From an uncultured Brachyspira sp. (GTDB lineage Bacteria; Spirochaetota; Brachyspiria; Brachyspirales; Brachyspiraceae), in the NCBI RefSeq assembly GCF_944393015.1, contig NZ_CALXYQ010000001.1, positions 62,001-126,000 of the forward strand: a stretch of 64,000 nt of DNA. The letters run 5' to 3'. This document shows, piece by piece, positions 60,220 to 60,463 of the stretch. A program made the position numbers and the translations under genes. Position 1 is the first letter of the stretch; each line of letters starts with the position of its first letter. Under the pieces are notes generated by a model, which saw only the letters and a list, made by a program, of their open reading frames with translations, was not told where the DNA came from and did no database searches.

Positions 60220-60463
60220 TATACACCAAAACAACTATATTTTGTCAATTTTTGATTTTTTATGAATGTAAATAATATTTTTTATAATATAAAATATTAT
60301 TTTGTATTGCTTAAATATGTTTTATCTGTAAGATAAATTATTAATTTTTGTACAATAATGAGTAATCAGCCGCACATATAGTTGACATTCAATAAGAATA
60401 AACAATACCGTGCGGGGCGGTGCTGCGGCTCGCAGTGACAAAATATAGTTGTTTAGGTATATA
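60220..60463. mobile_element. MITE-like element with near-perfect 28-bp terminal inverted repeats
   Basis: The left end (60220-60247, TATACACCAAAACAACTATA then TTTTGTCA) is the reverse complement of the right end (60436-60463) at all but two positions. Length is 244 bases, with no coding frame. The interior is AT-rich on the left and GC-rich on the right (GCGGGGCGGTGCTGCGG). It holds a 25-base stretch (60362-60386) found, in reverse and with one mismatch, in the CRISPR array at 23212-23236. It lies in the 670-base gap upstream of purL; the rest of that gap shows nothing I can name. Confidence 0.8.

Follow-up and report, generated by a model that had tools for sequence, protein, structure and literature searches.

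The element at positions 60220-60463 of the 64,000-nucleotide stretch of an uncultured Brachyspira sp. genome analyzed here (the window) is very probably one member of a family of miniature inverted-repeat transposable elements (MITEs) that is specific to Brachyspira and is derived from, and most likely mobilized in trans by, an insertion sequence (IS) of the IS630 family (Tc1/mariner-like). The family has the properties of MITEs, namely short copies that lack a transposase gene, terminal inverted repeats, TA duplication at empty sites and dispersed copies that are polymorphic between genomes. Derivation from IS630 is suggested by the same TA duplication and by ends held in common with an IS630 element that carries a DDE_3 transposase domain.

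The inverted arms described in the initial annotation are found at 60220-60247 and 60436-60463; they are 28 nt each, complementary at 26 of 28 positions (93%) and separated by 188 nt. Alignment to the family places the bounds of the element, with the flanking TAs, at 60222-60461 and, as annotated, no gene-like open reading frame (ORF) is contained within them; a single spurious frame of 63 aa, which runs over the remnant of a neighboring gene, pcp, overlaps the left end. The end motif recurs in the window, at five further places rather than three (≤3 mismatches), and the total of 7 matches compares with 0.03 expected in shuffles. The whole genome contains 183 matches at ≤2 mismatches (98+85), with none for the reversed-pattern control. 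The original proposal of a dispersed non-autonomous transposon family is borne out.

Two types of ends can be distinguished, A (TATACCTAAACAACTATATTTTGTCAA) and B (TATACTAAAAATTTTTAAGTTTGTCAA), 27 bp each, which agree at 18 of the 27 positions, that is, in TATAC on the outer side, TTTGTCAA on the inner side and a few of the bases that lie between them. Within 835 kb of the genome, sampled as stretches, 87 inward-facing pairs of ends were detected (35 A..B, 32 B..A, 17 B..B and 3 A..A; 67 with A and B together), with a peak at 240-350 bp; the threshold for this pairing is loose, and the long B..B pairs are mostly noise. Under stricter pairing, 47 A/B copies remain, with a median length of 295 bp and a range of 188-489 bp. 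A normal element of the family carries one end of each type, A and B, inverted relative to each other, and the near-perfect match of the ends, correctly noted for the reported copy, is an exception in the family: the A..A configuration is a minority form, and this copy is among the few that have it. Because it aligns along its whole length with copies of subfamily II that have a normal B end, it is a full-length variant of this subfamily in which the right end was swapped for an A end.

Mobility of the family follows from empty sites, for which the two flanks of a copy were joined with a single TA and compared with the sequence of relatives at the junction; this joined-flank search took in part of 19 listed sites. 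Clean empty sites with a single TA were identified for the copies at C3:138137-138490 (contigs of the window's genome are denoted C; empty in G009, which is B. intermedia, and in G025 and G007), C1:68293-68571, i.e., window 6294-6572 (G009, with 99.3% identity over the junction), and C4:73287-73554 (G009). The site of C1:194143-194443 is likewise cleanly empty in G009, with a single TA and one base change beside the junction, and two further empty sites show small local changes. From the single TA at these sites it follows that TA is the unit duplicated on insertion, and the element can be written as TA-[TAC...GTA]-TA. Tandem copies meet as G-TATATA-C, the sequence that insertion into a flanking TA would produce, and such junctions account for 28 of 117 strong ends; together with the single-TA empty sites, this rules out TATA as the duplicated unit. 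Outside the tandem junctions, TA precedes 56 of 89 strong ends, indicating that TATA is the preferred target context. The initial annotation was accordingly right about TATA-rich targets but not about the duplicated unit. Tandem arrays arise where one copy has inserted at the TA-bearing junction of another. Genes are largely avoided, with an ORF overlap of more than 30 bp for 2 of 45 copies versus 94% of random placements.

The search of the ends across Brachyspira, proposed along with the original prediction, yielded the A end (≤1 mismatch) in 22 of 26 genomes, with 1 to 228 copies where it is present and 0 in the rest. The highest number was found in genome G015 (228), and another rich genome is G024 (89). 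The A end was detected in none of 270 other Spirochaetota genomes, and the family thus appears to be restricted to Brachyspira, where its presence is polymorphic between species and the copies are multiple and dispersed. Searches of plasmids, phages and IMG/VR gave no family match.

The candidate partner of the family was identified through DDE_3 (PF13358), which has matches in 1 of the 26 Brachyspira genomes, that of Brachyspira sp. G79. The match sits in a 1056-bp B...A element (L106:757-1812) that borders on TATA and has a B end with 2 mismatches in 27 positions and an A end with 3 in 27. A transposase-bearing copy with the same ends, as envisaged in the initial annotation, therefore exists and is of the IS630 type, but its frame is broken by stops and frameshifts. 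A piece of this frame matches PF13358 at 1.2e-9 and NF033545 (transpos_IS630) at 4.2e-10, the latter being a fragment that falls short of the cut-off for the whole protein. Using all 1056 bp as the query revealed a second, truncated copy in G79 as well as stretches of ~60-190 bp from one or the other terminus of the element in G024 (at least 17 places), G015, G023 and G021, at 84-89% identity. In these four genomes the IS termini in many cases extend up to where a contig stops, which is the expected pattern for multi-copy elements, since these break short-read assemblies. One contig-end terminus contains an open transposase start (MDFNLTDEEIKFLK... / MDFNLTDEEIKFLKAFHKKVKDRKIADKVK...), and in another a C-terminus runs into the A end. 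The window's genome and G009 contain only MITE-type matches to the 1056-bp element. An IS5/IS4-type partner (PF01609) was considered and rejected: convincing A/B ends were lacking at all of its 6 matches, which lie in 4 genomes. Some Brachyspira genomes also encode rve-type transposases (PF00665), with 85 matches in G012 versus none to three in its relatives, which is a recent IS expansion.

Mobilization in trans by an IS630 transposase is, on comparison of the ends, the most likely mode of spread of the family. The transposase would bind the A and B ends, probably through their shared parts, the outer TAC and the inner TTTGTCAA, excise the element and join it to TA; the copies in the window's genome would now be stranded without a transposase of this type. 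Several observations weigh against this scheme. No intact transposase gene was seen, given that the G79 copy is broken and that only termini are assembled in G015, G021, G023 and G024, and the window's genome (a 111-contig assembly) has neither a DDE_3 nor a DDE_Tnp_1 match. The copies in this genome and in G009 look orphaned because no transposase of the IS630 type was found there, and the mover of the copies inserted since the split from B. intermedia was not seen directly; this transposase may be lost or lie in gaps between the 111 contigs. Furthermore, the match of the MITEs to the IS stops at the ends and does not reach the interiors, so that simple internal deletion of the known IS copy does not account for them. 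Finally, the suggested comparison of empty and filled loci succeeded at other copies, but the reported locus, which is rearranged, offers no clean empty site.

It is very unlikely that a different, unseen transposase moves the family and that the IS630 relic shares its ends either by parasitizing the same enzyme or by chance placement between two MITE ends. Such an enzyme would fit the lack of an intact IS630 gene and the copy-rich genomes without a detectable DDE_3 gene (the window's own and G009). Nevertheless, TA duplication is a hallmark of IS630, the borders of the relic are one B and one A end and recur in four other genomes, and IS termini are carried by G015, which has the most copies, and by G024. 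Even less credible is a host function of the ends as paired transcription terminators or other regulatory sequences, which we regard as extremely improbable. Copies are indeed in excess between convergent genes (14 of 43 placed copies versus 17% background), and folding of the element is far stronger than that of shuffles (z -5.6), but a convergent enrichment is also seen for parasitic repeats in pneumococcus (PMC3049150), and the empty sites and the range of 0 to 228 copies per genome point to mobility rather than to a fixed role. A scan of 59900-61000, around the reported copy, gave no terminator-like stem followed by a T run; on this result and on the empty sites with TA duplication, terminator pairs were rejected.

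Outward promoters in both ends could be a partial reason for the retention of these sequences, although we consider this unlikely. Read outward, A and B both give TTGACA-N17-TATA(TA), with an exact TTGACA in 80 of 117 ends and a hexamer beginning with TATA 17 bp on in most of these; what A and B have in common is precisely this pair of boxes. However, binding of the transposase at these sites would require the same parts to be conserved, and the second box in most cases reads TATATA, which differs from TATAAT at two positions. A simple scan of the reported copy found promoter-like sites no more often than in shuffles, and copies are not enriched upstream of genes and under-use divergent spacers.

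The reported copy sits where most of the pcp gene was lost (Table 1). At the same left border, a complete B..A copy stands in B. intermedia G009, and behind it comes the right-hand portion of the reported copy (84% over 174 aligned bp); the contig L031 from a metagenome-assembled genome has yet another, truncated insert. Given the pcp remnant and the different inserts in relatives, the site is a rearranged hot spot. The gene content of the region from purL to an amidohydrolase gene (60057-61004) alternates between genomes: G007 and G025 have a fuller pcp and no glyoxalase (VOC) gene, and the window, G009 and L031 have the pcp remnant and the VOC gene.

Table 1. Copies of the MITE family, their ends and the adjacent gene remnant in the window.
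Feature	Position	Strand	Remarks
Reported copy of the MITE family (subfamily II, A-type at both ends)	60222..60461	.	240 bp including flanking TA on each side; full-length alignment with other subfamily II copies, e.g., C1:45727-45968 of the same genome
Left A-type end, TACACCAAAACAACTATATTTTGTCAA	60222..60248	+	
Right A-type end	60435..60461	-	reads TATACCTAAACAACTATATTTTGTCAC on the - strand
Pyrrolidone-carboxylate peptidase (pcp) remnant, C-terminal part	60057..60219	-	PF01470, 5.2e-6; abuts left end of reported copy; gene intact/fuller at orthologous place in G007, G025
Family member, A...B ends	1579..1940	+	in tandem with 1939..2247
Family member, A...B ends	1939..2247	+	junction with preceding copy reads G-TATATA-C
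Family member, A...B ends	5853..6295	+	hairpin modules expanded; B. intermedia (G009) has this copy alone
Family member, B...A	6294..6572	-	inserted at TA of 5853..6295 copy; clean empty site in G009
Family member, A...B ends	20630..20952	+	
Probable degraded family member	42103..42401	+	similar-sized insert at orthologous place in G009, G025, G007

The interiors of the elements are of three types, which are mixed as modules among copies. An Rfam search of the window matched no known RNA family. With RNAalifold, the interiors show few pairs, and covariation is weak in subfamilies I and II and modest in III; we do not claim a conserved fold of the whole interior. Hairpins of the form NNC-GAA-GNN, with a perfect 3-bp stem and one loop, are abundant: 89 elements contain 99 of these versus 1.75 expected, with at least eight stems (GAC, CGC, GGC, GCC, TAC, TGC, CAC and TCC), and 55 of the 90 such hairpins in the 835-kb sample are inside elements, which make up less than 2% of the sequence. 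Larger copies are expanded with modules built of these hairpins (e.g., window 5853-6295 and 1579-2247), and several tested module sequences occur only within or adjoining family elements; none of the mini-hairpins was seen in the reported copy. They are hairpins of the d(GCGAAGC) type, which is known for its extraordinary stability in DNA. The larger copies might have grown by gaining such modules, which would suggest a process that involves hairpins in single-stranded DNA, or selection for such hairpins, inside the family; we put this forward tentatively and consider it unlikely. To our knowledge, neither has been described for other MITEs.

Several other repeats were noticed. The family copy at C3:59338-59584 holds a run of ~17 G in a genome of 27% GC. 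Another inverted repeat that resembles a MITE but has no relation to the A/B family, TAGACTTGTTTCAAAAC ... GTTTTGAAACAAGTC(TA), is found in B. innocens (L033), ~450 to 130 bases before the VOC gene, and in the 40001-60000 stretch of C8 (L077), near 4680-4760. The flanks of C4:41659-41964 have tens of matches per genome at 70-80% identity (GGGTGGGCAAATATAATTAACTTTTAAAACTTTAATTACATACCCCCGCCC), representing another dispersed repeat or a repeated gene end in Brachyspira.

The closest parallel by mechanism is RUP, the repeat unit of pneumococcus, for which mobilization by IS630-Spn1 has been proposed (PMC2229807, PMC3049150). Like RUP, the Brachyspira elements are short, gene-less and intergenic, number ~100 copies, have terminal inverted repeats in common with an IS630-family element, target TA and are enriched between convergent genes; the likeness put forward is one of mechanism. 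RUP is a 107-bp repeat of another genus, whereas the Brachyspira copies span 188-489 bp, with a different sequence, unlike ends and a modular interior with hairpin expansions. The Correia/NEMIS elements of Neisseria are similar by description only, with long inverted ends (24 bp or more), TA termini and duplication, forms with and without internal segments and high abundance (PMC2229807), but their host is not a spirochaete, and the Brachyspira family has a candidate IS630 partner. A modular interior with optional blocks is also characteristic of the BOX elements of Streptococcus (67-637 bp; PMC3049150), which, however, are linked to ISSpn2 rather than IS630 and consist of different modules. 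With the IS630-family IS (Tc1/mariner superfamily) themselves, the family shares the TA duplication and ~27-bp inverted ends, and its candidate partner the DDE_3 transposase, which the MITE lacks. The mechanism is therefore already known from RUP and similar MITEs, whereas the Brachyspira family seems undescribed: no description was found in the open-access PMC literature, subscription papers and ISfinder being outside this search.

The earlier picture of Brachyspira as nearly IS-free is altered by a family that reaches ~230 end motifs in a genome and whose sites are empty or filled between close species. Its copies are natural typing markers and, as the nested copies and the pcp locus illustrate, a source of assembly breaks and rearrangement, and the candidate IS630 partner makes their mobilization directly testable.
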